In this document: positions 1,961 to 27,003 of the stretch, one piece after another
Numbering within the stretch: the stretch's first letter is position 1
Layout of the letters: each line of letters opens with the position of its first letter
DNA from: Peptostreptococcaceae bacterium
Lineage (GTDB): Bacteria > Bacillota > Clostridia > Peptostreptococcales > Filifactoraceae
Assembly: GCA_030532905.1 (NCBI GenBank)
Contig: JAUNKE010000004.1
Location: 1 to 40,923 of the forward strand
Direction of reading: 5' to 3'
Length of the DNA: 40,923 nt
Made by a program: the position numbers and the translations under genes
The notes under the pieces: model-generated
What the model saw: the letters and a program-made list of their open reading frames with translations, nothing else
What the model was told of the DNA's origin: nothing
Databases searched by the model: none

Positions 1961-2034
1961 CAAGATAAAACGCCGAGTCGCCGGAAGAAATCAATTTGAA
2001 ATCAACCGACAAATCGGCGTTTTGAACTATCTTG
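1961..2034. repeat. Long imperfect inverted repeat in the gap between cutC and the IIA-like gene
   Basis: CAAGAT-AAAACGCCGA (1961-1976) pairs with TCGGCGTTTT (2014-2023) and ATCTTG (2029-2034), with a 5-base bulge. The 37-base interior has further partial pairing (GTCG with CGAC). The rest of the 306-base gap from 1902 to 2207 shows no gene, only a small hairpin (CAACGA/TCGTTG, about 2178-2193) at the end of cutC. The repeat may act as a distant terminator for the cutC operon or be a small mobile repeat. A -10-like TGATATAAA for the IIA-like operon lies near 1918-1930. Confidence 0.5.
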
Positions 2035-2207
2035 GATTAAGCTTTTTAGAAAAACCGATACGGAAGCGTGAAAATCATCGACCAACTCCCGAAATTTATC
2101 TCGTCATGAGTTTTTTACGGATTGCACAATCGTCGCATCGGATTCTACCGGACAATAGATTTCAACCATTCAACCATCAACGACTTATTCGTTGAGCAAA
2201 TCGCAAG

Positions 2208-2936
2208 CTATTCGAAGATTTTGCGCACCGCTCGGATTTTTTGCGTTGCCGTTTCTTCTATTATATATTCATCCCTCGCGTCGCTCTTCCCCATCTGAAC
2301 CGACGGGTTGCGGTACAGCATTTTGCTCGGAATTTGAGTTTTGCCTGATAAATGAATTTCCCGGATGCCGATTGCTTCAAACAGCTTTGCATTCTCCGCG
2401 CTTATTCCGGAGCCCGCCATAATCGTAACGGGCGATTGTTTTTGCACAAGTTTTTTCAGATTGTCGATGCCGTCCGTCGCCAAATTCATCCCGCCGGAAG
2501 TCAGCACGCGCGTAATGCCGAGAGAAGATAAATCGTCAAGCGCCTCGCTGAGATTTTTTGTCATGTCAAAGGCGCGATGAAAAACGACCTCCATCCCTTT
2601 TGCCGCTTCCATTACCTGTTGCATCCGCTTCTTGTCCACTCGTCCGTCGGCACTCAGCATGCCCGTCACGATGCCAACAACCTGAAGCTTCTTCATTCGC
2701 CGGATATCCTCCATCATAACTTCAAATTCGTATTCGTCATAGCAAAAATCGCCGCCGCGCGTTCGTATCATCACGACAATCGGTTTGTCAATCGCTCGCA
2801 TCGTTTGGACGACCAATCCCTCGGACGGCGTCATTCCGCCAATCGCCAAATCCTGACAAAGCTCAATTCTGTCTGCTCCGCCCGCCACCGCATTGACGGC
2901 GGATTGTACTCTATCCACGCATACTTCGATTAACAT
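2208..2936 (-). CDS. cutC: CutC family TIM-barrel protein
   Basis: The 242-residue protein carries the CutC family hallmarks in order: an N-terminal LIEVCVD strand, GADRIELCQDL, MIRTRGGDFCY, VVFHRAFD, RVLTSGG and IMAGSGIS. The length is typical. CutC was named for copper homeostasis, but that role is disputed and its enzymatic activity is not established, so a function should not be read from the name. The start has AAGGAGG seven bases upstream. It begins 12 bases after the stop of the importer ATPase gene at 2949, making it the last gene of the riboswitch-controlled importer operon. That placement suggests a role related to the imported ligand or metal, which is inference. Confidence 0.88.
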   Translation of the reverse strand: MLIEVCVDRVQSAVNAVAGGADRIELCQDLAIGGMTPSEGLVVQTMRAIDKPIVVMIRTRGGDFCYDEYEFEVMMEDIRRMKKLQVVGIVTGMLSADGRVDKKRMQQVMEAAKGMEVVFHRAFDMTKNLSEALDDLSSLGITRVLTSGGMNLATDGIDNLKKLVQKQSPVTIMAGSGISAENAKLFEAIGIREIHLSGKTQIPSKMLYRNPSVQMGKSDARDEYIIEETATQKIRAVRKIFE

Positions 2937-2948
2937 GTTTCCTCCTTG

Positions 2949-3716
2949 TTAAAAGCGCTCTTCATACGACAGATGATTTGCCGCATCGCCCATCAATTTT
3001 TTGGTAATCGGACTCGTGATGACCAGATTGTTCATATCCGCAAGCTCTTCGACCACTTTTCCGCTGTCCATTACAATCATTTTATCACAAATATAGTAAC
3101 AAGCGCCAAAATCGTGAGCGATAAACAGATAGGTCAGCTTGAATTTCGCTTTCAAATCCCCAAGCAGTTGGAGCATTTGCCTCTGCACCAGAGGGTCGAG
3201 ACCACTCAAAGATTCATCGAGAATCAGCACCTCCGGCTCAAGCATCAGCGCTCGCCCGATGCACACTCTTTGGAGCTGCCCGCCGCTGAGCTGTCTTGCA
3301 GGCTGTGAAAGCTGAATCTTCTCCAAGCCGACCCGAGCGAGCATTTCCTTCGCACGAGCGATTTTTTCATCTTTGGACAAATTGAATCCGCAAATATTCA
3401 GCGGCTCCACCAGCACATCATATACGGAGAAATTCGGATTGACCGCACCGAGCGCATTTTGAAACACGAGCTGGATATTTTGTTTTCGATTTTTGATCTG
3501 CATTCTGTTCATCTGATGATAGGCGACATCGTTGAAGAAAATATCGCCGTCGTCATATTTTTCCAATCCGGCTATCAATCTCGCCATCGTACTTTTTCCC
3601 GAGCCGCTTTCACCCATCAGCGCCAAGCAGCTCCCTTCTTCCAGCCCAAAACTGATTTTATCCAGCACGAGATTTTTGCCGTAGCGTTTGGATACATTCT
3701 TCGCCGTCAGTTTCAT
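2949..3716 (-). CDS. Nickel/peptide-type ABC importer ATP-binding subunit (second ATPase)
   Basis: This 255-residue ATPase has Walker A GESGSGKST, signature LSGGQLQRVCIG and a Walker B region VLILDESLSGLD, followed by the H-loop histidine in FIAHDFG. It is shorter than typical OppF/DppF and resembles NikE. I chose the ATG at 3716, giving MKLTAK. It has GGGAAGG at proper spacing, and its ATG overlaps the stop of the preceding gene as ATGA. An in-frame start 15 bases upstream would place the ribosome site inside the gene. It powers transport together with the ATPase at 3713-4498. Confidence 0.88.
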   Translation of the reverse strand: MKLTAKNVSKRYGKNLVLDKISFGLEEGSCLALMGESGSGKSTMARLIAGLEKYDDGDIFFNDVAYHQMNRMQIKNRKQNIQLVFQNALGAVNPNFSVYDVLVEPLNICGFNLSKDEKIARAKEMLARVGLEKIQLSQPARQLSGGQLQRVCIGRALMLEPEVLILDESLSGLDPLVQRQMLQLLGDLKAKFKLTYLFIAHDFGACYYICDKMIVMDSGKVVEELADMNNLVITSPITKKLMGDAANHLSYEERF

Positions 3717-4498
3717 TTTGCACCTTCCCATCTCGAATATTTTTTCGGCAAAAGCAATTCCTTGCCGTAATCGGTTTGCGGATTTTCCAAAATGGATTCG
3801 GCAGCGCCCCGCTCGACAATATTTCCGTCCTTCAAAATAATCACATCGTCCGCCAACTGCTTGACCAATTCATAATCATGCGTAATGACAATCAAGCTCG
3901 TGCCTTCGCCCTGACATTTTTTGAGCGTGTCGATAATCGTCTGCGTATTGTATTCGTCGAGCGCCGAGGTCGGCTCGTCCGCAATAATCAGCACCGGCGA
4001 TAATTCCATCATCATCGCGAACATAATTCGTTGCAACATACCGCCGCTGAGCTGAAAAGGATATTTCTTTGCGATAATCTCCGGATTTTTCAGATTGAAA
4101 TTTGAAAGCGCATGAACCAATTTCTTCATGCTCTGCTCCCGATTGAGTGACAATCTGCTGTTGAACAATTCGTATGCGTGCGACTCGATGCTTTGATTCG
4201 GATTAAAAAGCGCCATCGGATTCTGCGCGATGTAAGCGATGCTGATTCCGCGATATCGGCTCCACATCTTATTGCTCATCGTGAGCAAATTGTTTTCGTC
4301 AAACATAATTTCGCCGGTAATTTCAGAAACATCTTCCGGTCTTTGTCCAATCAACAGGCGAGAGAGCATGGTTTTTCCCGAGCCGCTTTCGCCGATGATG
4401 ACCAAGGTCTTGCCGATGGCGAGCTCGAAAGAAATTTCGTTGAGATAAATTCTTTCGCCGATGCGCACCATCAAATCTTTCACTTCTAATTTTCCCAT
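3713..4498 (-). CDS. Nickel/peptide-type ABC importer ATP-binding subunit (first ATPase)
   Basis: This 261-residue protein has Walker A GESGSGKT, a Q-loop in YIAQNPMALFNPNQS, signature LSGGMLQRIMFAM and Walker B LIIADEPTSALD. The H-loop is VITHDYE. It is of NikD/DppD type. It overlaps the permease gene upstream by 13 bases and the second ATPase gene by 4 bases, so all are translated from one message. The two ATPases probably form the heterodimeric motor of the importer. Confidence 0.88.
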   Translation of the reverse strand: MGKLEVKDLMVRIGERIYLNEISFELAIGKTLVIIGESGSGKTMLSRLLIGQRPEDVSEITGEIMFDENNLLTMSNKMWSRYRGISIAYIAQNPMALFNPNQSIESHAYELFNSRLSLNREQSMKKLVHALSNFNLKNPEIIAKKYPFQLSGGMLQRIMFAMMMELSPVLIIADEPTSALDEYNTQTIIDTLKKCQGEGTSLIVITHDYELVKQLADDVIILKDGNIVERGAAESILENPQTDYGKELLLPKKYSRWEGAK

Positions 4499-5298
4499 AG
4501 CTTTTTCAATCCTTTTTTATCAAAATTCTCACCGAGCAAATTAAAGGTCAGCACCGTCACAAAAATCGCCAAACCGGGATACATCACCAAGCCGGGAATT
4601 GTACGATAGTACGATTTTGCGTCGTTGAGCATCATGCCCCATTCGGAAATATTGGGTTGAACGCCGATTCCCAAAAACGAGAATCCCGATATCATCAGAA
4701 TAATGCTTCCGATATTCATTAACGCGATGATAAGAATCGGCTTGAACACGAAAGGCAGGATATGTTTTCGAATGATGTAAAACGGAGAAGCGCCCATCGA
4801 CTGCGCCACCTGAACATATTCATTGTTCTTGACGGTCAGCACCATGTTGCGCAAGATGCGGGCATAGTAAACCCATTCCACCATCGTCACCGCGATGACG
4901 ATATTATCGATGCCCTGCCCGAGAATGCCGGCAAATGCCATCGACAGCAAAAAACTCGGAAAAGCCATGACGATGCCGGAGAACCAGCTGAACACTTTTT
5001 CGACGCGTCCGCCGAACCAACCGACATACAGACCGATTGGAAAGCTGATGAGCAGCGTGAGAATCGTAATCGCCATCGAGATGGACAAAGAAAGTCTGGT
5101 GCCGTAGAGCAATCGGGAAAGTACATCCCGTCCCAAATGGTCGGTTCCCAGCGGATGAAGCTCGCTCGGCAATTTCAATTTATTGGACAAGTCGATATAT
5201 TGCGGGTCGTAAGGGGCAATCATCGGTGCGAAAATCGCAATCAAAATCAGAATAATCTCCAAGACCAATGCGACATAGAACAATTTATTCTTCTTCAC
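4486..5298 (-). CDS. Nickel/peptide-type ABC importer permease, DppC/NikC type
   Basis: This 270-residue integral membrane protein has one N-terminal helix (residues 6-28) and a domain of about five helices. After the first helix it has the family pattern PLGTDHLGRDVLSRLLYGTR, diagnostic of DppC/OppC/NikC permeases. The EAA-like loop that contacts the ATPase is VAQSMGASPFYIIRKHILP. The C-terminal region contains SGFSFLGIGVQPNISEWGMML. It overlaps both neighbours by about 13 bases. It partners the permease encoded at 5285-6250. Confidence 0.88.
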   Translation of the reverse strand: MKKNKLFYVALVLEIILILIAIFAPMIAPYDPQYIDLSNKLKLPSELHPLGTDHLGRDVLSRLLYGTRLSLSISMAITILTLLISFPIGLYVGWFGGRVEKVFSWFSGIVMAFPSFLLSMAFAGILGQGIDNIVIAVTMVEWVYYARILRNMVLTVKNNEYVQVAQSMGASPFYIIRKHILPFVFKPILIIALMNIGSIILMISGFSFLGIGVQPNISEWGMMLNDAKSYYRTIPGLVMYPGLAIFVTVLTFNLLGENFDKKGLKKLWEN

Positions 5299-6250
5299 GA
5301 TACACCTCCTGCGTTCTCATTCTCGTGTGCGGATCCAAAAACCGAACGAGCGATTGCGTCAGACCGTTCACGGTAATCGCCAAAATACCGAACATCAAAA
5401 GCGATGCCTGAATGATTGGAACATCCCCGCCTTTGACCGCCGCAACAAACATCTTGCCGACGCCCGGCCATGCAAACACCTCTTCAATCAACACCGAGCC
5501 GGTGATGAGATACAAGATATTCGAGCTGAGCACCGTAATAATCGGAATCGCCGCATTTTTGAGCAGATGATTGCCGATGACGAATTTCTTGTTCACCCCA
5601 CGCAATATCGCATTGCGCACATGGGGCGAGCTCATCTGCTCCATCATACTCTTTCGAATCAGCAGACTCGTTTGCCCCACCAAAGGAGTGATCAGCGTCA
5701 GACTCGGCAGGATATAATTTACGAAGGTTCCCCTGCCGGATGGCGGAAGGAATTTGTTCATCACCGCAAAATAAATAATCAGCATATAGCCGAGCCAAAA
5801 AGTCGGAACCGATACGCAGGCGAAACAAAAGCTCTGCACCAGATAATCCCACAATTTGTCATGTAAGAGCGCGCTCGTGATTCCGAGAAAAAGAGATATC
5901 AGCAAAAGTGCGCCGAAAGATACCGCGCCCAACTGCAGAGTCGGCACGACCGCTTTGGCAATCACCTCTTTGACGGGCGTCTTTTTCAAATAGGATTTTC
6001 CGAGATTTCCTTTCATCACACCGAGCAACCAATCCGAATATTGTTTTACAATCGGCTTATCCAATCCCAATTCCAGCCGCGCCTTTGCCAAAGTTTCATC
6101 CGTAATCGCGACATGCGACGCGCGAAGGTAATTCGCCGCCGGGTCGCCGGGTGATAATTTGACCAACAAAAAGGTCAGTATCGATATCATAAATAAAGTG
6201 AGAAAAAACAGCGCTATTTTTTTCCCCCATTCCATCAATGATTGATTCAT
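5285..6250 (-). CDS. Nickel/peptide-type ABC importer permease, DppB/NikB type
   Basis: This 321-residue membrane protein has an N-terminal helix (about residues 11-31) followed by SPGDPAANYLRAS. That stretch is typical of NikB-like permeases and somewhat closer to metal than oligopeptide members. The later pattern IEEVFAWPGVGKM is the standard DppB/NikB signature. It is preceded by GAGAGGA. A 75-base gap with a hairpin separates it from the binding-protein gene. With the DppC-type partner it should form the membrane channel. Confidence 0.88.
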   Translation of the reverse strand: MNQSLMEWGKKIALFFLTLFMISILTFLLVKLSPGDPAANYLRASHVAITDETLAKARLELGLDKPIVKQYSDWLLGVMKGNLGKSYLKKTPVKEVIAKAVVPTLQLGAVSFGALLLISLFLGITSALLHDKLWDYLVQSFCFACVSVPTFWLGYMLIIYFAVMNKFLPPSGRGTFVNYILPSLTLITPLVGQTSLLIRKSMMEQMSSPHVRNAILRGVNKKFVIGNHLLKNAAIPIITVLSSNILYLITGSVLIEEVFAWPGVGKMFVAAVKGGDVPIIQASLLMFGILAITVNGLTQSLVRFLDPHTRMRTQEVYREEE

Positions 6251-6283
6251 TTCAAAAATCCTCTCTATGAGTCGAACAGTAAA

Positions 6284-6316
6284 ACACCGGACTCCAAACT
6301 CGTTGAAATCCGGTGT
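6284..6316 (-). other. Hairpin between the binding-protein gene and the permease genes
   Basis: On the minus strand ACACCGGA and TCCGGTGT pair across a 17-base loop, followed by GTTTTAC. It lies directly after the stop of the binding-protein gene. Such hairpins commonly stabilise or partly terminate the message so that the binding protein exceeds the permeases. The short T-run makes partial termination possible; this role is inferred. Confidence 0.55.
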
Positions 6317-6325
6317 GCATCAAAA

Positions 6326-7969
6326 TTATTTTACCTTTACAGTTTCCCATACCGGCAGACGATTCTCTTCCGGCATAAATTTTACACCTTCCAATTCGCC
6401 TGTACGATATACTGAAACGATTGCCTGATACGAGATCGGAATATATACCGCCTGCTCATGCAATGTCGTAAGCACATATTCGTACATCTCTTTGAGTTTC
6501 GCCTCATCGGACTCCACAAGCAATGCTTTAATCGTCTTGTCCAATTCATCCTTCATCGGCAATCCTTTTTGAGCTTTGTAATCCGGCCCGCCGTTGTCCG
6601 ACGCTTCCGTCATCGAGGTCAAAAACGCATGCGGATCCCACGGCGCTCCCCAAGAGAAGTTCATCATGACATCATAATCTCCTTTGGATGCATTCTCCCA
6701 ATACGCTTTTTCTTCCATCGCTTTGAGCTCCACCTGCACGCCGATTTTTTGCCATTCGCCCTGCACATACTCGCCGACGCTCTTGTCCGTTATTTTGGAT
6801 GCGATATAAGGGAAACTCAAAGTCAGCTTTTCACCGTTTTTCTCACGAATTCCGTCGCTGCCCTTTGTCCAACCCGCTTCATCCAGCATCTTTTCCGCCT
6901 GTGCCAAATCATAAGCATATTTTTCAAGCTTCACATCGGTGTTCGGAACATTCGGTGCAAAAATCGTATCCGCCGCTTTCTCAATGCCGCCGAAAATATT
7001 TTGCGCCACGCTCTCTTTATCCACCGCATGGCTGAGCGCTTGACGAACTTTCAAGTCCCCCAATTTCTTACTCTGAGTGTTCAACATCACCATACGAGTG
7101 GACATCGGCTCGGAACTTGCCGTCGTATAAGTCGAATCCGCTTGATACGCATTGAATCGATCCAAACTGATTAACCCGTTTCCGTAAATCAAATCGATAT
7201 TTCCGGATTCAAATTCCAATGCCAAAGTTTCGCTGTCCGGCAACACTTTGATAACCACTTCCTTAGCCGCCGGCTTCTCTCCCCAGTAATGCTCATTCGG
7301 TACGAATACCGCATACTCATCCTGCTTATGCTCTTTGAGCATCCAAGCGCCTGTTCCGATCGGTGCTTTAATTTCCTTGCCCGTATTATTGTCGTCCGGG
7401 AAACCCGCATCCGCCAAGAAACGAATCGGACGAATCATCGCCAAATCGTACAAAGTTGCGGAATACGCATTGCTCAACTTGATTTCAAAAGTCATATCGT
7501 CAACAGCCTTCCATGACTCCAAATAGTTGGTGAACGCAAACCAAGAGTGATTTCCTTTATTTTCTTCCGCAAAAATCGTGTCGAAATTCTTCACCGCATT
7601 CGCCGCATTAAAAGGAGTTCCATCCGAAAACTTAACGCCCTCACGCAATTTGAAAGTGTAAGTTTTTCCATCCGGTGAAATCTCCCAAGACTCCGCGAGC
7701 TTCGGCTCAATCACTCCGTTTTCTCCATAAGCCACCAATCCGTCATACACCATGTCCTGTGTAATGAACTGGCTCGGCAAATACATGTGCGGATTGAGCG
7801 TTCCCACTGAATCCTCGTTGAATCCGAGCGTCAATTTGCCCGATGCCGTCTGCTCGGCAGTGTTCTCTTTGTTGTCTTTGTTTTCATTTTGCGTTGCAGT
7901 TGGTGACTGGCAAGCTACCAGCAATCCCGCCAACAAAACAATCGCAAATTTTTTCAGCATTCTTTTCAT
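6326..7969 (-). CDS. Lipoprotein solute-binding protein of a nickel/peptide-type ABC importer
   Basis: This 547-residue protein is an extracytoplasmic family 5 (SBP_bac_5) binding protein. It begins with a lipoprotein signal, positively charged MKRMLKK then a hydrophobic core ending LLVAC, so Cys20 should carry the lipid anchor. A short Thr/Gln/Asn-rich linker follows. The mature part shows family features such as GTLNPHMYLPSQ, a LAESWEISPDGKTYTFKLREGVKFSDGTPF segment and VRQALSHAVDKE. Annotation as a nickel-binding protein is common for such sequences, but a cobalamin riboswitch in its leader points to cobalt or a corrinoid-related ligand. I cannot name the ligand from sequence. The ATG has GGGAG at good spacing. 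It is the first gene of an operon ending in cutC. Confidence 0.88.
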   Translation of the reverse strand: MKRMLKKFAIVLLAGLLVACQSPTATQNENKDNKENTAEQTASGKLTLGFNEDSVGTLNPHMYLPSQFITQDMVYDGLVAYGENGVIEPKLAESWEISPDGKTYTFKLREGVKFSDGTPFNAANAVKNFDTIFAEENKGNHSWFAFTNYLESWKAVDDMTFEIKLSNAYSATLYDLAMIRPIRFLADAGFPDDNNTGKEIKAPIGTGAWMLKEHKQDEYAVFVPNEHYWGEKPAAKEVVIKVLPDSETLALEFESGNIDLIYGNGLISLDRFNAYQADSTYTTASSEPMSTRMVMLNTQSKKLGDLKVRQALSHAVDKESVAQNIFGGIEKAADTIFAPNVPNTDVKLEKYAYDLAQAEKMLDEAGWTKGSDGIREKNGEKLTLSFPYIASKITDKSVGEYVQGEWQKIGVQVELKAMEEKAYWENASKGDYDVMMNFSWGAPWDPHAFLTSMTEASDNGGPDYKAQKGLPMKDELDKTIKALLVESDEAKLKEMYEYVLTTLHEQAVYIPISYQAIVSVYRTGELEGVKFMPEENRLPVWETVKVK

Positions 7970-8002
7970 TTATTCTCCCTTCTGTATGCCTGCTAAAAGC
8001 AT

Positions 8003-8030
8003 AAAAAAACTCGCATGATGAATAAGCGAG
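8003..8030 (-). terminator. Riboswitch expression-platform terminator
   Basis: On the minus strand CTCGC pairs with GCGAG over an 11-base loop, and seven T follow immediately. It lies between the cobalamin aptamer and the binding-protein start codon, about 34 bases before the ATG. The loop contains TTCATC, which can pair with GATGAA at 8040-8045. That GATGAA can alternatively pair with another TTCATC at 8066-8071. This gives a plausible terminator/antiterminator switch. Confidence 0.65.
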
Positions 8031-8074
8031 CAATCATACTTCATCCGCTATCTCTCGTAGTCGTTGATGAATCG

Positions 8075-8199
8075 CATTATGGGTAGTTATCCGGCTCGAC
8101 AGTTGCCTTACGGTTGCGGGACAGCGGAAATTCACTTCTCTACCTTTCGACCCGATGTACATAAGCTGTAACAACAGCAAAATCAAGTCCGTCATAATG
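8075..8199 (-). ncRNA. Cobalamin riboswitch aptamer
   Basis: Read on the minus strand, the leader contains the core elements of the cobalamin (B12) riboswitch family: GTGAATTTCCGC, then CTGTCCCGCAACCGTAAG, then GAGCCGGATAACTACCC. CATTATG at the 5' end pairs perfectly with CATAATG at the 3' end and forms the closing P1 stem. At about 125 bases it is shorter than many members, which implies reduced peripheral stems. A terminator follows before the importer genes. Known members repress B12 synthesis or uptake genes when adenosyl- or methylcobalamin binds. That would place the importer and cutC under B12 repression. Confidence 0.85.
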
Positions 8200-8231
8200 A
8201 AATTTATTCTACTTCTATAAGGTATTTTGAC

Positions 8232-8260
8232 AGTATATCACAATTTGATAGACAGCACAA
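8232..8260 (-). promoter_or_regulatory. Promoter of the importer operon
   Basis: TTGTGC and TATACT are separated by 17 bases, with TGA before the -10 giving an extended -10. The predicted transcript starts near 8225 and runs directly into the cobalamin aptamer, consistent with a riboswitch leader. Confidence 0.6.
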
Positions 8261-8367
8261 TACATTCGCTAAAAATTCTATCACTATTCAACTCTAAAAC
8301 AAAATTTCCCATACCGATTGATGATTTTTGTGTAAAATTCCAACGGAGTTGTCAAATTTATGTAACA

Positions 8368-8399
8368 ACAAAGCTCACCGCACAAACGATGAGCCTTGT
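8368..8399. terminator. Hairpin in the intergenic region between the exporter and importer operons
   Basis: ACAA-GCTCA and TGAGC-TTGT pair with a single mismatch across a 12-base loop. The exporter permease gene ends about 210 bases away at 8608 and reads toward it. No strong T-run follows on either strand, so it is only a possible terminator. Confidence 0.35.
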
Positions 8400-8439
8400 A
8401 TTTCGGATTATTGATTGTTTATTTCCCAATATGATTTTT

Positions 8440-8600
8440 CAATTCCGATTTCGAGCTTGGAAATCTATTTTTTTCCAATTTCGAATACCAACTTGGGAAT
8501 TAGATTGTTGTTTTTTCCCGATATTTCCAATGCGAATTCCAACTCGGTTTTAATTTTTGGTTCTTGTCGACTTCGAATGCCAACTCGGAATTCCTATTTT
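8440..8600. repeat. Degenerate short repeats in a gene-free stretch
   Basis: The stretch from 8261 to 8607 has no credible gene. Within it, variants of TTCGAATnCCAACTCGGAATT recur around 8478, 8530 and 8570, at roughly 45-base spacing. A more diverged, partly inverted copy lies near 8441 (CCGATTTCGAGCTTGGAAAT). Spacing and sequence are too irregular for CRISPR. It may be decayed tandem-duplicated intergenic DNA. Confidence 0.4.
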
Positions 8601-8607
8601 CACTTTG

Positions 8608-9753
8608 CTATTCGACAATTCTTTTTTTACGGGCGAAATACAATCCCATCACAAAGAACAGAATGCCGAACAAAATTTGTATTCCCAGATTTCGAATCAT
8701 AAACGAAGCTTCAGGATTGGCGGTTTCATTGATGATAATGAAATAATATAAAGGAAAGCATTTTGCAACCGCCAACACTTTCGCACTCAAAAATGATTGC
8801 GGTAAAAAAACGCCCGATATGAAAGCAACTCCTAATGACAATACCGTAGAAAGCACATTTTTCGCATGTCTGTTGTTGGTAATATTGTTCAGCAAAAAGG
8901 TCAACGCCATTACGACGATCGAATAAACCACCAAATTGATGATGTATTTTCCGATTTGATGCTCGAACAGTTGACTTCCTTTAAAGGCAAAGCATATTCC
9001 CACAAAGAGTGCAGTAATCAACGCGCCCATCAAAAGCTGTGCCATATAGATTTCCATCTGCATTATGGTATCGTCTTTGGACGACATTGCAATTCGATTC
9101 TTCGTTTTCGGCTCGTTGAAGCTGCTCATACTCATGCCGATGAGTGAAATATAAATTGCCATCAAAATATATCCGCTCGTGTTGAAGAAGGTCTTGACCC
9201 ACAATCTTTGCAATTCATGTTCCGGCGTCTGCTCCGTCTTCAGAAATTCCACATTTGCTTCTTTTTTCAAGATTTTTTTGGTGCGTTCCATATCGTATTG
9301 TCCATTTTTCTCCGTTGCCCGATAAATCGTCAGAAACACTTTCATCCGATTGTCGATGATATGGCCTTCAAATCCCATCGGATTGAAAATCACCTGAACC
9401 GTCGGCTCGTCCTTCTCAAAAAGCGCTTTGCTGTTTTCGGGAATTCTCACGATGGCATCGTAGTTGCCCATAAAAATCAGCTCTTTTGCACTGTCCAAAT
9501 CATCAGGCAGCAAATCCAATTTCGCATCTTCTCCCAAATAGTCGCGCAGATATTCTTCCACCGCATCGGCGACTTCATCATCGCTGTTTTTGATGAGTCC
9601 CACGATGGATTTCGTCGGCTCGAATATCGTTCCCTGTCGGTCTATATTTCCTGAGGTGGAGAGAAACAGAAGGATGACGAAAATGAAAATATACATTATA
9701 AAAATGATTTTGTTCGCTCGCACATTTTTGAAAAAATATTTAATCACATTCAT
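8608..9753 (-). CDS. ABC-2 type exporter permease (distal)
   Basis: This 381-residue protein has one N-terminal helix (about 16-33), then a large extracytoplasmic region of about 150 residues, then five or six helices. This is the layout of ABC-2 permeases of the YhgE/DrrB-like wide family. The charged tail KKRIVE is cytoplasmic. The ATG has GGAGGC upstream and overlaps the end of the preceding permease gene by 14 bases. Together with that permease and the ATPase it forms a predicted heterodimeric exporter. The substrate may be a lipid, a peptide antibiotic or another envelope-active compound, given the adjoining envelope-type two-component pair. That is inference. Confidence 0.8.
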   Translation of the reverse strand: MNVIKYFFKNVRANKIIFIMYIFIFVILLFLSTSGNIDRQGTIFEPTKSIVGLIKNSDDEVADAVEEYLRDYLGEDAKLDLLPDDLDSAKELIFMGNYDAIVRIPENSKALFEKDEPTVQVIFNPMGFEGHIIDNRMKVFLTIYRATEKNGQYDMERTKKILKKEANVEFLKTEQTPEHELQRLWVKTFFNTSGYILMAIYISLIGMSMSSFNEPKTKNRIAMSSKDDTIMQMEIYMAQLLMGALITALFVGICFAFKGSQLFEHQIGKYIINLVVYSIVVMALTFLLNNITNNRHAKNVLSTVLSLGVAFISGVFLPQSFLSAKVLAVAKCFPLYYFIIINETANPEASFMIRNLGIQILFGILFFVMGLYFARKKRIVE

Positions 9754-10789
9754 ATTTTCGCCTCCAAAGAATTACAAAACCGACGATAAGCATAATCATC
9801 GCTTGAATGACCAACAGCATCAGGTCTTGTAAAAAATGCTGCGTACTTCCTATCAGGTTGACGCGCATTAAAAGATTCGTGATATTGGCAACCGGATTGA
9901 GCTTTGGAATCCACGGTGAAATTTTCCACAGCATTCTCGGGATTTCGCGTCCCATCATTCCCGCAAAGAAACTAAGCATCAGAGAGAGACCGATTGCCAT
10001 ACTCATTTTGGCATCTTCTTTTATCTTCTTCGGAATTCCGAGCAAAATCCCCAGCGAGATTCCGAAAACATTTCCGCAGGCGATGATTGCAAGACTTTTC
10101 CAAAGATGCGGGAACAGATTGATTCGCAAAACCTTTTGCACATAAAACACCAAGACGATGTTCACCACCATGTTGACCAACAGCCCTAAGAAAAAGTAGC
10201 AGGTGATTCGCGTAGATTTTTTGAACGGGCTGACCGAAATTCTTGAATTGAAGCCATCTTGTTTGGAAATTTGAATGCCCGTAAAAACACTGTATATCGA
10301 TATCATCGCAATCCCCGAATAGAAAGTGATGCGCCAACTGTCTTCGGATTGCTCAATCGTTTCGGTATAGACGGCATCAAATTTCACTTGTTCGAAAGGC
10401 ACACCGCTTTTCATCATTTCGCTGAATTGATTCATCGCATCAAGCACTTCTTTGACGGCGGTTTGCGCCGAATCGGAGCGACCGACGAGCATGTTTCCGT
10501 CCTTTTTGACATAGGCGACAATTTCATCTTCTGCCAAAGCATTTTTCGCTTCTGCTTCATCCATCAAAGAGTATTCGATGATATCAATCTCGCCGAATAC
10601 GGAGGCAAAAGGATGCTCGGGACTCACGCCGATTGGCGCTTTTTCAAACTCTCTGTTCATCACGCCCGAGAATCCGAAGTAAAAAATGGTAATCAATACC
10701 AAAGGATACATAATCGTCCAAAATGCGAAGCCTTTATCTTTGACCGCATTTTTCAGAAAGTATCCGAATGCTGCCAGATTTCTGCTCAT
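9740..10789 (-). CDS. ABC-2 type exporter permease (proximal)
   Basis: This 349-residue paralogue of its neighbour has an N-terminal helix (about 20-40), an extracytoplasmic segment up to about residue 175, and a C-terminal bundle of helices. I chose the ATG at 10789, whose first base overlaps the TGA of the ATPase gene (TGATG). The triplet before it is TTG and is a less likely start. The overlap implies strict co-translation with the ATPase. Confidence 0.8.
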   Translation of the reverse strand: MSRNLAAFGYFLKNAVKDKGFAFWTIMYPLVLITIFYFGFSGVMNREFEKAPIGVSPEHPFASVFGEIDIIEYSLMDEAEAKNALAEDEIVAYVKKDGNMLVGRSDSAQTAVKEVLDAMNQFSEMMKSGVPFEQVKFDAVYTETIEQSEDSWRITFYSGIAMISIYSVFTGIQISKQDGFNSRISVSPFKKSTRITCYFFLGLLVNMVVNIVLVFYVQKVLRINLFPHLWKSLAIIACGNVFGISLGILLGIPKKIKEDAKMSMAIGLSLMLSFFAGMMGREIPRMLWKISPWIPKLNPVANITNLLMRVNLIGSTQHFLQDLMLLVIQAMIMLIVGFVILWRRKYECD

Positions 10790-11718
10790 CAATCTCTCAA
10801 CTCCTTTCCGGTCAGCGCCAAGAAGACATCGTTGAGCGATGGCTTATCGCTGAATAATTTGTTGTACGACAGATTGTTCTTTTCGATAAATTCGATGAGC
10901 GCCAGCAGATTGTTGCGCCCTTTTTCAAAATGCAGATGATATTCGTTGCCCTGTTTATCCATTGAAATTAAACCGTCGAGCTTTTGCAGCGCCTGCTTTT
11001 CTTCTTCGGAGATATGCACGAATTCGACGACGATTTTTTCGCCCGTCGCAATGCTGTCTTTGAGCTCGTTCAAAGTGCCCGATGCAATGCTTCGTCCGCT
11101 GTCGATGATGACGATTCGGGTACAGATTTCTTCCACCTCTTCTAAATAATGGCTCGTATAGACGATGGTGCAGCCTTCTTTATTGAGCTTCTTGATGCCG
11201 TCGAGAATAAAATTCCGGCTCTGCGCATCGACCGCCACCGTCGGCTCGTCAAAGAATATCAGCTTGGGCTTGTGCGCAATACCGCAGGCGATGTTGAGTC
11301 TTCTTTTGAGCCCGCCGCTCAGTTTGGACGGTATGAATTTACGATATTCGCCCAGTTCGACAAAGGCGATCGCATCTTCGACATATTGCTTTCGCGTTGC
11401 CGAATCTTCAATATATAATCCGCAGAAAAAGTCGATATTCTCCTGTACGGTCAAATTTTCGAGCACTGCCACATCCTGAGGCACCAATCCGATTTGTCTT
11501 TTGATATGATTGGTGTTTTGAGTCAGATTTTCACCGAAAACCTGAATTTCTCCTTTGTCATAGCTGAGCAATGCCAAGATGCAGTTGATGAGCGTCGTTT
11601 TACCGGAGCCGTTCGGACCGAGCAAGCCGAGCACCTCACCATCCTGCACTTCCAAATTCAAATGGTTCAATGCCAGCAATTCCTTGTAACGCTTTACCAA
11701 ATTGTTTACCGTAATCAT
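10789..11718 (-). CDS. ABC exporter ATP-binding subunit
   Basis: This 309-residue ATPase has Walker A GPNGSGKTT, Q-loop VPQDVAVLENLT, signature LSGGLKRRLNIACG, Walker B KLIFFDEPT and the H-loop YTSHYLEE. A C-terminal extension of about 90 residues, typical of DrrA/YhaQ-type exporters, follows. I chose the ATG at 11718 (MITVNN), which has AAAGGGG five bases upstream; an in-frame start 27 bases earlier lacks such a site. It is the first gene of the three-gene exporter operon, divergent from the kinase gene. Confidence 0.87.
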   Translation of the reverse strand: MITVNNLVKRYKELLALNHLNLEVQDGEVLGLLGPNGSGKTTLINCILALLSYDKGEIQVFGENLTQNTNHIKRQIGLVPQDVAVLENLTVQENIDFFCGLYIEDSATRKQYVEDAIAFVELGEYRKFIPSKLSGGLKRRLNIACGIAHKPKLIFFDEPTVAVDAQSRNFILDGIKKLNKEGCTIVYTSHYLEEVEEICTRIVIIDSGRSIASGTLNELKDSIATGEKIVVEFVHISEEEKQALQKLDGLISMDKQGNEYHLHFEKGRNNLLALIEFIEKNNLSYNKLFSDKPSLNDVFLALTGKELRD

Positions 11719-11765
11719 ATCTGCCCCTTTCTCATTCACATTCAATATCCGATTATTTATCTTTC

Positions 11766-11794
11766 ATTATAAGAAGAATTCAGATTCCGCGCCA
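11766..11794 (-). promoter_or_regulatory. Promoter of the ABC-2 exporter operon
   Basis: A perfect TATAAT (11766-11771, minus strand) lies 47 bases before the chosen ATG. The hexamer 17 bases upstream is TGGCGC, a poor -35 box. Such a promoter usually needs an activator, which fits control by the divergent response regulator. Confidence 0.5.
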
Positions 11795-11804
11795 GTGAGT
11801 GTAA

Positions 11805-11820
11805 TCACAACCCCTTGTGA
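11805..11820. promoter_or_regulatory. Perfect dyad in the shared promoter region, likely response-regulator site
   Basis: TCACAA-CCCC-TTGTGA is a perfect 16-base palindrome. Its right arm is the -35 box of the kinase promoter. A second dyad, TGACA-TT-TGTCA, overlaps it at 11818-11829. The position is suited to activating the exporter promoter and tuning the kinase promoter. NarL-type regulators bind such dyads as dimers. Confidence 0.5.
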
Positions 11821-11843
11821 CATTTGTCATCTTGTGATATGAT
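11815..11843 (+). promoter_or_regulatory. Promoter of the kinase/regulator pair
   Basis: TTGTGA and TATGAT are 17 bases apart, with TGA before the -10 as an extended element. The expected start is near 11850, leaving a leader of under 20 bases with AAAGGAA before the kinase ATG. Confidence 0.6.
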
Positions 11844-11867
11844 GGCTTCAAGAGAAAGGAAATCAAC

Positions 11868-12896
11868 ATGAGTATTTTTTCCAAAATATTATTTTTGATA
11901 TTCAGCTTGCTGTCCTTTGACATCGCTGAAAAAAATAATATCATTCTGTTTTTGAGCATTGCCATCCTTTTTGTGTTGAGCGATGTCGTTCCCAAACGAT
12001 TTCGATTTATATGTTACATCGGATATATTTTTTTGTGTTTCTATGAGCCGAAAACGACTGCATTTTTGCCTTTATTCATCTATGATTTGTATTCGGACTG
12101 CAATTTTTTTGCCGCCGGAGCATTTTTACTCTGGGGAATTTTGGATAAATCCGCTGTAGTTTTTGCATTTTCCTGTTTCGCATTTTATCTTGCCCATACG
12201 GAAGAACATTATGCTCAAAGTCTCTTGAACAAGACGATTCAACTGGACAATGTGCGTGAGCGGCTTTTTGAGGGGGAAGAAAAGTTTGAGCTTTACAATC
12301 GCGAAATGAGAAATGAAATCGAAATTGCCATTTTGAACGAGCGAAACCGAATCGCACGGGAAATTCACGATTCGGTCGGTCATGCGCTCAGCAGCTGTAT
12401 TTTACAAACGGAAGTTATCAAATTGCAATCCGAGGATGAGGCGCAAATCGGAAAGCTCGAAGTGTTGCAACAGACTTTGCAAAACGGAATGCAGGACATT
12501 CGCTCCAGCTTGCACAATCTGCACGATTCGTCTTTGGATTTGAAGCGCAGCATGGAAGATATTTTAGCCAGCCTGCCGCTGCAATCCTCCTTTGACTTTG
12601 CAAGTAACAGCGAGATGGATTATACGATGAAAATAGGTATTTTATCCGCCTTTAAGGAGATGCTCGCCAACATCGCCAAGCATTCCGATGCCAAAAGCGT
12701 ACGCATTCAGCTGATGGAGCACAAGAATTATTACAGCCTTTCAGTCAAAGACGACGGGACGGTAAAGCATTTGGAAAAAAACTCACTCGGTATCGGACTG
12801 CATTCCATCGCCGACTTTGCCAAAAATTACAACGGCAATCTCCACTACGGTTATGAGCAGGACGGATTCTTTGTGCATATCACTTTATCGAAGTAA
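11868..12896 (+). CDS. Sensor histidine kinase, DesK/NarL-partner type
   Basis: This 342-residue membrane kinase has about four to five N-terminal helices in residues 1-115 and almost no extracytoplasmic domain. A short coiled linker follows. The HisKA_3 dimerisation box NERNRIAREIHDSVGHALS contains the phosphorylated histidine in EIHD, at about residue 165. The catalytic domain has an N-box EMLANIAKHSDAKS, a DDG motif and LGIGLHSI. Kinases with intramembrane sensing and no external domain often monitor envelope stress or the state of a neighbouring transporter. Its partner is the regulator at 12961. The ATG has AAAGGAA at good spacing. Confidence 0.87.
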   Translation: MSIFSKILFLIFSLLSFDIAEKNNIILFLSIAILFVLSDVVPKRFRFICYIGYIFLCFYEPKTTAFLPLFIYDLYSDCNFFAAGAFLLWGILDKSAVVFAFSCFAFYLAHTEEHYAQSLLNKTIQLDNVRERLFEGEEKFELYNREMRNEIEIAILNERNRIAREIHDSVGHALSSCILQTEVIKLQSEDEAQIGKLEVLQQTLQNGMQDIRSSLHNLHDSSLDLKRSMEDILASLPLQSSFDFASNSEMDYTMKIGILSAFKEMLANIAKHSDAKSVRIQLMEHKNYYSLSVKDDGTVKHLEKNSLGIGLHSIADFAKNYNGNLHYGYEQDGFFVHITLSK

Positions 12897-12960
12897 TCCA
12901 CAAAAAAAATGATTTTAAATTTGAATGACATTTAATTTTCTTGTTTTACAAAGGAGTTTT

Positions 12961-13566
12961 ATGAAAATCATTATTATCGATGACGATGCCATCGTGCGCG
13001 AGTCGCTCAAAAATATATTACAAAGCAAGGGCATCGAAGTGTTGGCACTCGGCAGCAGCGGGCGCGAAGCCATCGAGCTCTACGAAAGATATCGACCCGA
13101 CATTCTACTGATGGATATTCGAATGGATGATTTGAACGGACTGGAAGCGACTTCCGAAATTTTGAAGCGGGATGTCGATGCAAAAATTTTGCTTATCACG
13201 ACATTTCAGGATGACGAATATATAAGTAAAGCGATTGAACTCGGTTGTTGCGGGTATATTCTAAAACAAAATATCGCCGGTATTTTACCGGCATTAAATG
13301 CCGTCGCCAACAACCAACTGGTTTACGATTCCAAAATCGTCAACAAGCTTTCACCGTCCAAGTCGCATCATTTGCCGGATTTTTTGTCGGAGCGCGAAAA
13401 AGATATTTTACTGTTGGTGGCGGACGGTTTGAACAACAAGGAAATTTCCGAGCGGCTCTTTCTCAGCGAAGGCACCGTTCGAAACTATATTTCGGCCCTG
13501 CTGGAAAAATTGAATTTGCGCGATAGAACTCAGCTTGCAATTTTTTATTATCGGGGACTGCAATAA
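12961..13566 (+). CDS. NarL/LuxR-family response regulator
   Basis: This 201-residue regulator has a receiver domain (residues 1-120) with acidic pocket DDD, phospho-acceptor Asp in LLMDIRM, Thr in LLITTFQ and Lys in YILKQ. The C-terminal LuxR-type helix-turn-helix (about 138-195) contains LSEREKDILLLVADGLNNKEIS and GTVRNYIS. I chose the ATG at 12961, which follows AAAGGAG; a frame opening 36 bases earlier has no such site. It likely controls the divergent exporter operon and its own operon through the dyads at 11805-11829. Confidence 0.88.
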   Translation: MKIIIIDDDAIVRESLKNILQSKGIEVLALGSSGREAIELYERYRPDILLMDIRMDDLNGLEATSEILKRDVDAKILLITTFQDDEYISKAIELGCCGYILKQNIAGILPALNAVANNQLVYDSKIVNKLSPSKSHHLPDFLSEREKDILLLVADGLNNKEISERLFLSEGTVRNYISALLEKLNLRDRTQLAIFYYRGLQ

Positions 13567-13660
13567 TCAAGCTGAGCGCTCTCGGATATGTGCCGGCATC
13601 TTCAATATCAACATTTCGATTTTATAACAAAGCCGACTTACTTAGGGAACAGGGGTATCT

Positions 13661-14566
13661 ATGCGTTTAAGAACTATTATTTTGCTTATGGTGATGACCT
13701 TTGTGGTATCGAGTGCATCCACCGTATTTTATTTGCGTCATACACAGAAAGACAGTACGATTACTACGAATTACAAAAGCGAAAACAAGGACGACGGATA
13801 TGTTCCGCCGAAGTTTACAGCCAATCGAGTGATTGCGAGCGAAAGCGATTTGGAATATGCCATCGGGCGCGAGCTTGCCGAATTCAACCCGCGTTTTCGA
13901 TTCAAAATCAACACCAATCTGTTGGACGAGTCATCGATTGAGCGCGTCTTTTCGAATTTGATGTCAAGGGGTACGACTTCTTGGCATGTCAGCGGTTATC
14001 GATGGTATTATCCCGATCAGAAGCTTTATACACAATTGACGATTGAAATCCGTTATGTCATGTCTTTGGAAGAAGATTTGGATGTTGAAAAATTTGTCGA
14101 TACTTGGATTGCACAAAATATCCACCAACAGATGAGCGATGAAGAAAAAGTTCGTAAAATTCATGACCATATCGTTTCCACTTATTACTATCAGCTCGGC
14201 GATGATTCCGGAATGATTGACGACACTTCCGCCCATGCGCCCGCTTCGCTGATTAAAAACAAATGCGGTGTTTGTCAAGGCTATGCGGCGCTGTTTCAGA
14301 AAATGCTCACCGAGGTCGGCATTGAAAACCGATTTATCGTCGGCAGCGTCGGAAAAAGCGGCAGCGAAAACCATATTTGGAATCTGGTCAAGCTCGACAA
14401 TGCGTGGTATCATGTCGATACGACTTGGGACGACCCGAGCCCCGATGTACCGGGACGCGTTATGCATCGGTACTATTTGCGCGGCGACTATTATATGAGC
14501 AAAACACATCAATGGGTGAGCGATTTTTATCCGAAGGCTAAAAAAGATTACGAAACAAAAAGATAA
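13661..14566 (+). CDS. Membrane-anchored transglutaminase-like protein, copy 1
   Basis: The 301-residue protein has an uncleaved-looking N-terminal helix (about residues 4-22). A spacer follows, then a transglutaminase/protease-like core. The triad residues are visible: Cys205 in CGVCQGYA, His238 in ENHIWNLVKLDNAWYHVD and Asp253 in the same strand, followed by TTWDDP. In such bacterial proteins the domain may act as a peptidase or peptide-modifying enzyme outside the cell; the substrate is unknown. AGGGG precedes the ATG. It lies 94 bases after the response regulator with no clear terminator between, so some co-expression is possible. The gene at 14680 is its paralogue. Confidence 0.82.
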   Translation: MRLRTIILLMVMTFVVSSASTVFYLRHTQKDSTITTNYKSENKDDGYVPPKFTANRVIASESDLEYAIGRELAEFNPRFRFKINTNLLDESSIERVFSNLMSRGTTSWHVSGYRWYYPDQKLYTQLTIEIRYVMSLEEDLDVEKFVDTWIAQNIHQQMSDEEKVRKIHDHIVSTYYYQLGDDSGMIDDTSAHAPASLIKNKCGVCQGYAALFQKMLTEVGIENRFIVGSVGKSGSENHIWNLVKLDNAWYHVDTTWDDPSPDVPGRVMHRYYLRGDYYMSKTHQWVSDFYPKAKKDYETKR

Positions 14567-14598
14567 GAATTCATTTCGTAAATCCAAAATCAAAATTT

Positions 14599-14625
14599 AA
14601 AATCGCTTTTGTGATTTGCGATTTT
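14599..14625 (+). terminator. Hairpin between the two transglutaminase-like genes
   Basis: AAAATCGC and GCGATTTT pair perfectly across an 11-base loop about 30 bases past the first gene. The 3' arm ends in TTTT. It probably attenuates or ends the upstream message before a new promoter. Confidence 0.5.
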
Positions 14626-14649
14626 CGGTTTATAAAAAAGCTTTATAAT
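14622..14649 (+). promoter_or_regulatory. Possible promoter of transglutaminase copy 2
   Basis: TATAAT at 14644-14649 is perfect; the hexamer 16 bases upstream, TTTTCG, is a weak -35. It lies 30 bases ahead of the second gene, so that gene may be expressed independently. Confidence 0.45.
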
Positions 14650-14679
14650 GGAGATAATCTTTTGGAAAGGGGTTTTCAA

Positions 14680-15714
14680 ATGGGTGGAAAAAAATTTATT
14701 TTACTTATTTTAATTTCGCTGGCGGCCTCCGTCGGCATTACGATGCTCGCACTGTCTTTGACAAACAAAACAGGCAATATCCAAAGAATCGACAATGCGA
14801 ATAAAAAATCGTCCGATAAAGTCGATAGTATTTTGAAGAAGAATCCGAGCGATTTGTCCGATTACACCGAAGAAGAAATCGTCGAATCCGAAGAAAGAAT
14901 TATGGCGATTATTCAGGATAAAGTATCGGAAATCAGTCCGGAAATTAAGATTCGGGTTCATCCCTACCTCGATATTGACAATCGAATCGAAATTCTCATG
15001 GACAAATTGTGGTATCACAAAGATGCAACTTTTACCAGAAGTACCTATTCTTGGAGAACCGAAGATTTTCGAGACTACCACTTGCTGACGCTCCATGTGA
15101 AGTATCATACCAGCAAAGAGGATGATAAAATGGTCAACGACTTTGTAAGCGCTTGGGTAAAGAAAAATATTACGCAGAAGATGAGCGATGAGGAAAAAGT
15201 CCGTAAGATTCATGACCATATCGTTCTATCCTACGAATATGACTTGGGGGATAAAAACAAAGAGGTCAACGGTACATCCGTCCATGCAGCTTGCTCTTTG
15301 ATTAAAGAAAAACGAGGTGTCTGCCAAGGTTATGCAACGCTGTTTCAAAAAATGGCGAATGAGGCGGGCATTGAAAACATTTTGGTTTACGGAATTGCAA
15401 ATGTCAAAAAAGAAGCAATCGAGAATGAAGAGGTAGTGGAGGAAGAAGAGACAACCTATGATGGATATGAAGAAGAGAAACCCAGCTATCATCTTTGGAA
15501 TCTGGTCAAGGTCGAAGGGAATTGGTATCATGTCGATGTGACTTGGGATGATATTTCCGACCCGAGATTTGAAGGATGGATTTTCTACGACTATTATCTG
15601 CGCAGTGACAACGATATGTTCGGCGGGCATGTGTGGGACAATTTCAAATATCCGAAAGCGCCCAATACTTATCCGAATCGACCGCAGATGGTTGAAGGAA
15701 CATATAATCCATAG
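14680..15714 (+). CDS. Membrane-anchored transglutaminase-like protein, copy 2
   Basis: This 344-residue paralogue has a start with AAAGGGG eight bases upstream and an N-terminal helix (about residues 5-25). The core carries Cys215 in RGVCQGYA, His271 in SYHLWNLVK and Asp286 in WYHVDVTWDD. The MSDEEKVRKIHDHIV segment is identical in both copies. It differs by an acidic insertion of about 25 residues (EEVVEEEE, YEEEK) between the Cys and His regions, which would sit near the active site and could change substrate choice. A longer in-frame start upstream lacks a ribosome site and would run through the promoter. Confidence 0.82.
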   Translation: MGGKKFILLILISLAASVGITMLALSLTNKTGNIQRIDNANKKSSDKVDSILKKNPSDLSDYTEEEIVESEERIMAIIQDKVSEISPEIKIRVHPYLDIDNRIEILMDKLWYHKDATFTRSTYSWRTEDFRDYHLLTLHVKYHTSKEDDKMVNDFVSAWVKKNITQKMSDEEKVRKIHDHIVLSYEYDLGDKNKEVNGTSVHAACSLIKEKRGVCQGYATLFQKMANEAGIENILVYGIANVKKEAIENEEVVEEEETTYDGYEEEKPSYHLWNLVKVEGNWYHVDVTWDDISDPRFEGWIFYDYYLRSDNDMFGGHVWDNFKYPKAPNTYPNRPQMVEGTYNP

Positions 15715-15741
15715 TAAAGAAGAAAAATTCCAAACTCGGTA

Positions 15742-15768
15742 TGTGGTACCCCAAAAAATCAGACTTTT
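15742..15768. mobile_element. Probable terminal inverted repeat remnant of an IS3-family element
   Basis: The 27 bases beginning TGTGGTACCCCAAAAAATC and ending GACTTTT resemble the ends of IS3/IS150-group elements (TGTa..cCCCCAAAAgTtAGAC). A terminator hairpin follows directly, as in many such ends. No transposase frame and no second end are found in the remaining 270 bases to 16040, so at most a fragment is left. The identification rests on remembered IS-end patterns. The rest of the 326-base gap holds only the two terminators listed. Confidence 0.35.
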
Positions 15769-15800
15769 AAGCGTAGTAGTTTTATGGCTGCTACGCTTTT
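15769..15800 (+). terminator. Terminator after transglutaminase copy 2
   Basis: AAGCGTAGTAG pairs with CTGCTACGCTT (one G-U) around an 8-base loop, followed by TTTTC. It lies 55 bases after the stop codon and next to the IS-end-like sequence. Confidence 0.65.
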
Positions 15801-15995
15801 CTATGCAGCTTTTTCGTGCTAATCTCTATTAGAAATAAGTCAAGTCTGTATGTTGAATAACCGTTGTTTGCTTTCCGCCCTGTAGGAAACGGTAAGCCTG
15901 CTATTTCGTCATTCCATCGGAACGGAAAGGGCATGATTTTTCTCTACAGTTTATTTTGTATTAGAACTTACAATATGATGCCTTGCTCAAGTTAA

Positions 15996-16037
15996 AAAGG
16001 AACTGCCGAAGAACTTTCATTCTTCAACAGTTCCTTT
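15996..16037 (-). terminator. Strong terminator of the ABC half-transporter operon
   Basis: AAAGGAACTG and CAGTTCCTTT pair perfectly, and inside them GAAGAA pairs with TTCTTC around a short loop. On the minus strand the hairpin begins right after the stop at 16041 and ends in a T-run. It may also act on the plus strand. Confidence 0.8.
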
Positions 16038-16040
16038 CTT

Positions 16041-26970: not shown

Positions 26971-27003
26971 AAATTCCCTTCCTTTCAATTACATAATGGT
27001 ACA

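Follow-up and report, generated by a model that had tools for sequence, protein, structure and literature searches.

A cobalamin-class riboswitch ahead of a NikA-type importer operon in a Filifactor-group bacterium, and cobalt as its probable substrate

What does an importer of the nickel-transporter type carry when its operon stands behind a leader that looks like a cobalamin riboswitch? This question is raised by a 40,923-nucleotide stretch of the genome of a Peptostreptococcaceae bacterium (contig JAUNKE010000004.1 of assembly GCA_030532905.1; hereafter the window), on whose minus strand, from position 8202 to 2208, a leader and six genes all run in the same direction. A first-pass annotation had read the leader as a cobalamin riboswitch and the genes as a SBP_bac_5/Nik-type ATP-binding cassette (ABC) importer followed by cutC, and had proposed a role in the uptake of cobalt or of a corrinoid precursor. 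Comparison with homologous leaders confirms, at the level of sequence and covariation, that the window leader belongs to the cobalamin (corrinoid) riboswitch class (Rfam clan CL00101). The importer itself most likely carries cobalt for anaerobic B12 synthesis, a reading that the sequence evidence leads us to assign a probability of roughly 0.6.

The riboswitch comprises an aptamer (helices P1 to P6) and a P13 hairpin and occupies positions 8031-8202 of the minus strand. At curated thresholds, the window gives no hit to any Rfam family. RF00174, the family against which the leader was to be checked, scores 12.8 bits (gathering score 31.5), and at a relaxed threshold RF01482 matches 8170-8035 on the minus strand with 24.9 bits (E 0.016; gathering score 50). 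The leader of a Leptotrichia orthologue passes RF01689 (AdoCbl-II) with 39.4 bits (gathering score 36.5). Since the Rfam thresholds are not decisive for the window leader, it was tested by homology, and a covariance model (R2) built from nine homologous leaders, with the window left out, recovers it with 123.1 bits (E 1.3e-22). In the proposed covariance-model check, the window leader thus stays below the curated score of the Rfam family, and the window-free subgroup model recovers it; to reject the riboswitch on the missing Rfam hit alone would be wrong, as the homologous leaders settle its identity.

A common core, GTCCCGCAAC[C/T]GT...AG[C/T]C[G/A]GAT.ACT..CCATAAT, is shared by the leaders of all five orthologues that a protein search identified, and the closing stem and the helices P2, P3, P6 and P13 are likewise matched in each of them. 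Within the window, the conserved segment GTCCCGCAACCGTAAG (8107-8122, minus strand), which covers the P5/L5 region and the 5' side of P6, is invariant or nearly so in the five leaders. In their alignment, made with plain MAFFT and annotated for structure by hand, 94.8% of the cells are paired and seven pairs have changed on both sides. When the set is widened to ten leaders from two phyla, 93.2% of the cells in seven helices are paired, as against 27-47% when the partners are slid, and 12 compensatory pairs stand against 6.1 in shuffles (none of 500 shuffles was as high); this ten-leader alignment was fitted to the structure and is thus biased in its favor. The closing stem P1, which pairs CATTATG at 8193-8199 with CATAATG at 8081-8075, had been noted in the first-pass annotation and is borne out: its seven pairs are 100% paired, without a broken cell, across the ten leaders, and two of the seven have changes on both sides. 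The P6 pair C102-G136 is replaced on both sides by U-A in two leaders. The P13 hairpin (8040-8071, minus strand; TTCATC...CTACGAGAGATAG...GATGAA), whose loop sequence L13 is conserved among the leaders, forms in all ten; it is expected to contact the L5 kissing loop and to act as the switching element. Folding energy is left out as evidence because that of the leader is no better than that of shuffled sequences (z -0.46).

The RNA keeps close company with one particular type of binding protein. Two genomes from the same genus encode orthologues of the window protein with 85-87% identity; a metagenome assembly that bears the label Filifactor alocis has one with 80%, and Leptotrichia hongkongensis, a member of a different phylum, one with 73%. 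The leader is present upstream of each of the five orthologues found by protein search, and an RNA model derived from these five leaders picked out five further Fusobacteriales genomes (78-117 bits), every one of which has a nikA orthologue (70-74% identical) directly downstream. As these additional genomes were found via the RNA, they establish that the RNA predicts nikA and are not proof that every orthologue has the RNA. In the NikA tree, the riboswitch clade has a support of 100/100 and sits on a long stem; an identity of 73% across two phyla suggests that leader and operon may have been transferred together horizontally between phyla. Remoter relatives of this NikA also stand behind riboswitches, of the ordinary RF00174 family, in four further genomes (two such genes in one of them), and these relatives fall into three separate places in the tree; 16 other homologues have no cobalamin riboswitch within the fetched flank.

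The product of the first gene of the operon (6326-7969, minus strand) is a substrate-binding lipoprotein (PF00496; lipobox LLVAC) that scores 664.3 bits against the NikA model TIGR02294, well above its cut-off of 393, as compared with 148 and 108 bits against the DppA and OppA models. These scores bear directly on the idea that the operon encodes a peptide importer feeding amino-acid fermentation, which the riboswitch would tie to B12-dependent amino-acid breakdown. The superfamily consists mostly of peptide importers, B12-dependent enzymes are present (window 25288-26988), and peptide use is expected of an oral anaerobe of the Filifactor group. We nevertheless regard a peptide role as very improbable: the binding protein is of the NikA and not of the DppA/OppA type, and a repressing switch would lower peptide uptake at high B12, where such a role needs the reverse.

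Zhang et al. used Y402, R137, R97 and H416 as nickel-site discriminators in 2009 (PMC2667541). When compared with E. coli NikA, the window clade has lost three of these four ligand residues (R97, Y402, H416) and has kept R137, so that it lacks the majority of the discriminators (one of four present). The individual substitutions in the window protein are R97 to N, Y402 to W, T490 to N, T23 to L and M27 to F, together with the loss of H416. In the other 21 homologues, R137 and Y402 are present without exception and R97 in 19; the combination of N97, W402 and a missing H416 is confined, among 26 homologues, to the five-member riboswitch clade. W100, R137 and W398 are retained; in the E. coli protein, these residues belong to the site that holds the chelate. 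The structure of the E. coli protein (1zlq), a member of the same family, matches the window NikA with 413 bits. The nearest solved sequence is that of PDB entries 9pl3, 9pl4 and 9pl6 (639 bits), deposited as 'Peptide ABC transporter, peptide-binding protein', which in the printed alignment has N97, W402 and N490 in common with the window NikA. An AlphaFold2 model of NikA computed from four sequences was discarded (predicted local distance difference test score 43).

Cobalt is favored as the substrate because CbiD, a protein of anaerobic B12 synthesis, is present, no [NiFe] hydrogenase was found, and R97, Y402 and H416 are lost. CbiD occurs in all five clade genomes tested (the window genome G000, G001, G002, G005 and the Leptotrichia genome G489), and the window genome also has a cbi cluster with CbiM. 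On the strength of CbiD and the cbi cluster, the host is taken to make B12 de novo and therefore to need cobalt. The imported form of cobalt would probably be a small chelate. The first-pass annotation had called upon a B12-dependent mutase in the same window (25288-26988) as matching support for the substrate; we reject this argument as weak, because the cell needs B12 for the mutase whatever the importer carries, and an enzyme encoded 17 kb away shows only that the cell uses B12.

Several points weigh against cobalt. Nine of ten of these genomes have CbiM, the usual importer of cobalt, so that a second cobalt importer looks redundant; the same finding could also mean a second route for cobalt, or a route for a different form of it, and it leaves room for a chelate or a corrinoid. 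The missing H416, R97 and Y402 could also point to a ligand other than a metal chelate. [NiFe] hydrogenase was not found in the riboswitch-clade genomes tested, nor urease in the window genome, the only one searched for it; these were the nickel enzymes searched for, others were not searched, and the absences rest on single-family searches and on an assembly that is 96% complete. The proposed cobalt or corrinoid-precursor role is thus supported in part, by CbiD, the lack of a hydrogenase hit and the altered pocket, and called into question by the distribution of CbiM.

The same data speak to the reading of the system as an ordinary nickel or mixed nickel/cobalt importer that stands behind a B12 riboswitch, or as an importer of metal bound to the metallophores of neighbors, the choice of metal being set extracellularly. 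NikA is the best family, R137 is kept, and the score of the binding protein against the CntA model is substantial at 414 bits; the staphylococcal opine-metallophore importer CntABCDF is a member of the same superfamily, and the Cnt ATPase score is likewise notable at 232 bits. Both scores lie under the curated cut-offs (800 for CntA, 385 for the ATPase), three of the four nickel-site discriminators of Zhang et al. are missing, the nickel enzymes searched for were not found, and opine dehydrogenase (PF10100) was not found in the genome by a search that had no positive control. Taken together, we consider a nickel or metallophore importer unlikely.

A corrinoid, such as cobinamide, cobyric acid or a cobamide, is a somewhat less unlikely substrate, though still a doubtful one; a protein of the peptide/nickel type would in this case have turned into a tetrapyrrole-type binder under B12 control. 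The operon lies under a corrinoid riboswitch, CbiM is already there in most of these genomes, and the metal-side residues are gone from the pocket. The PDB matches include a heme-binding member of the SBP_5 family (heme-binding protein A), and Zhang et al. refer to work in which E. coli NikA binds heme (PMC2667541). Against a corrinoid stand the fact that NikA is by far the nearest family, the retention of the chelate-site residues R137, W100 and W398, and the presence of a BtuF/BtuC-like system that is already found behind a cobalamin riboswitch in the window genome.

This genome contains eight other clear cobalamin riboswitches, including those that precede CbiM and cbi genes and the one before the BtuF/BtuC-like pair. 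Three further SBP_5-type importers are located directly behind RF00174 riboswitches in it (L009:1466-6641, plus strand; L010:1659-4325, plus strand; L014:5133-11987, minus strand), a point in favor of a corrinoid as the substrate of the window importer. The binding proteins of these three share 24-30% identity with the window NikA, and L014 has two of them in tandem that are 72% identical to each other. Of 40 genes taken as the first to follow a cobalamin riboswitch, in the window genome and in others, 8 encode binding proteins of the NikA superfamily. Other families of the class likewise have SBP_5-type binding proteins immediately after a cobalamin riboswitch (L042:2-1336 and L043:2-1411, both minus strand; L065), and the link of the superfamily to B12 is therefore wider than NikA. 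It is a further, unlikely proposition that importers of the peptide/nickel type have been recruited repeatedly into the B12 regulon of these anaerobes and that the window NikA clade, with its altered pocket, carries a corrinoid or a precursor rather than a metal chelate. If it were true, this clade would add a third type of corrinoid importer to BtuFCD and the energy-coupling factor (ECF) systems.

How might the leader act on the importer, the probable cobalt transporter? An intrinsic terminator (8003-8031, minus strand) consists of GCTCGC and GCGAGT arms around an 11-nucleotide loop, followed by seven T residues, has a folding energy of about -8 kcal/mol, and has counterparts at the equivalent position of at least four other leaders, in keeping with the terminator that had been noted ahead of the importer. 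A consensus promoter and terminator scan of the leader gave no excess over chance; a simple terminator scan misses this terminator because its loop exceeds the limit of 8 nucleotides of that scan. Within the terminator region lies a TTCATC with which the 3' strand of P13 (GGATGAA) is able to pair; in several leaders of the Leptotrichia type, the 5' terminator arm is a potential partner of that strand. Just upstream of the riboswitch, TTGTGC-N17-TATACT (8260-8232) looks like a promoter on visual inspection only.

We propose that binding of a corrinoid would steady the contact between L5 and L13 as well as P13 itself; stabilized P13 would leave the 8031-8003 terminator free to form, so that transcription would end early when B12 is sufficient. 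Without a corrinoid, the GGATGAA strand of P13 would pair with the terminator-region copy of TTCATC, transcription would go on, and the Nik-type importer, along with cutC by read-through, would be made when B12 is scarce. A repressing mechanism based on a P13 antiterminator is established for the metE riboswitch of P. megaterium, and the nikA riboswitch of Sporomusa ovata departed from the P13 model when mutated (PMC10653944). The pairing between P13 and the terminator region in the window matches the metE mechanism but the S. ovata nikA element differs, and we therefore infer, for a switch predicted from sequence, both the response to corrinoids and its repressing direction; by the same token, details of the proposed switching may be incorrect.

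The arrangement had been taken as unusual, but it is not new in kind, as it was already predicted in a few other bacteria. Zhang et al. described NikABCDE systems preceded by B12 riboswitches in Clostridium tetani and Desulfitobacterium hafniense as exceptions to nickel specificity and, citing earlier work, as predicted cobalt importers (PMC2667541). As in the window, a NikABCDE-type operon lies directly behind a cobalamin riboswitch in these Gram-positive anaerobes; the window has an aptamer that falls below the Rfam thresholds, a NikA that keeps one of the four discriminators, and an added cutC. Kennedy et al. found in 2022 that the corrinoid riboswitch upstream of nikA in S. ovata, a placement like that in the window, is functional and repressing in a B. 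subtilis reporter, with several corrinoids being effective (PMC9600662). The E. coli nik operon is controlled by NikR; that of the window stands behind the B12 riboswitch. What is new is the divergent aptamer together with a NikA clade common to relatives of Filifactor and to Leptotrichia-type Fusobacteriales.

The remaining genes of the operon, all on the minus strand and all where the first-pass annotation had placed them, complete the importer. A NikB/Opp2B-like permease (5285-6250; NF045470, 298 bits, cut-off 350; TIGR02789, 272 bits, cut-off 447) is followed by a NikC-like permease (4486-5298; TIGR02790, 309 bits, cut-off 358), a NikD/CntD/CntF-like ATPase (3713-4498; NF047576, 232 bits, and TIGR02770, 223 bits, both below their cut-offs) and a NikE-like ATPase (2949-3731; TIGR02769, 243 bits, cut-off 333). 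Of the importer proteins, NikA alone exceeds its curated NCBIfam cut-off; for the permeases and ATPases, the best matches are NikB, NikC, NikD, NikE, Opp2 or Cnt models, at scores below the respective limits. A gene for a CutC-family protein (2208-2936; PF03932, 230 bits) begins 12 bases after nikE. Because the permease and ATPase genes overlap one another and cutC starts so close to nikE, a single transcript is likely. In related nik operons, no match to cutC was found downstream of nikE; the idea that it is a functional part of the importer system was rejected on this ground, and cutC is probably a co-transcribed passenger.

Elsewhere in the window, 36579-40778 (minus strand) encodes a repeat-rich, very long surface protein (1399 amino acids in the open frame) with a C-terminal domain that by eye resembles the N-terminal type of copper amine oxidases; a similar domain ends the protein encoded at L012:542-1726. 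Also on L012, a cobalamin riboswitch precedes a segment (2025-8506, plus strand) that encodes a protein that is anchored to the S-layer and contains a prenyltransferase-like toroid, another that is DUF4430-like by eye, and CbiQ- and CbiO-like parts of an ECF transporter. A second riboswitch on L012 precedes a 2888-residue SLH/LRR/DUF4430 protein (9030-17693, plus strand). By analogy, the toroid and the DUF4430 domain recall human transcobalamin and suggest that B12 may be captured at the surface.

A further clear cobalamin riboswitch (L005:1501-1661, plus strand, equal to L013:1718-1878) has, in the window genome, no gene of at least 100 codons on the same strand within about 1.5 kb; it diverges from a gene for a beta-keto acid cleavage enzyme and points into genes of the opposite strand. 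Elements like it are present in both other genomes of the genus (L068, L069), and it may be an antisense or small-RNA switch. Within the same order, two small genomes (G048, G070) have about 12-15 cobalamin riboswitches each (e.g., L040, L041, L045, L073), several of which precede secreted or surface proteins without an assigned function.

For the annotation of such systems, these findings mean that the Rfam thresholds miss one subgroup of the cobalamin riboswitches. If our reading is correct, the pocket residues R97, Y402 and H416 would provide a testable rule that separates nickel-type from B12-linked NikA proteins, and the operon would represent a well-conserved, clade-defining system for the acquisition of cobalt (or of a corrinoid) in the oral anaerobes of the Filifactor group and their Leptotrichia counterparts.

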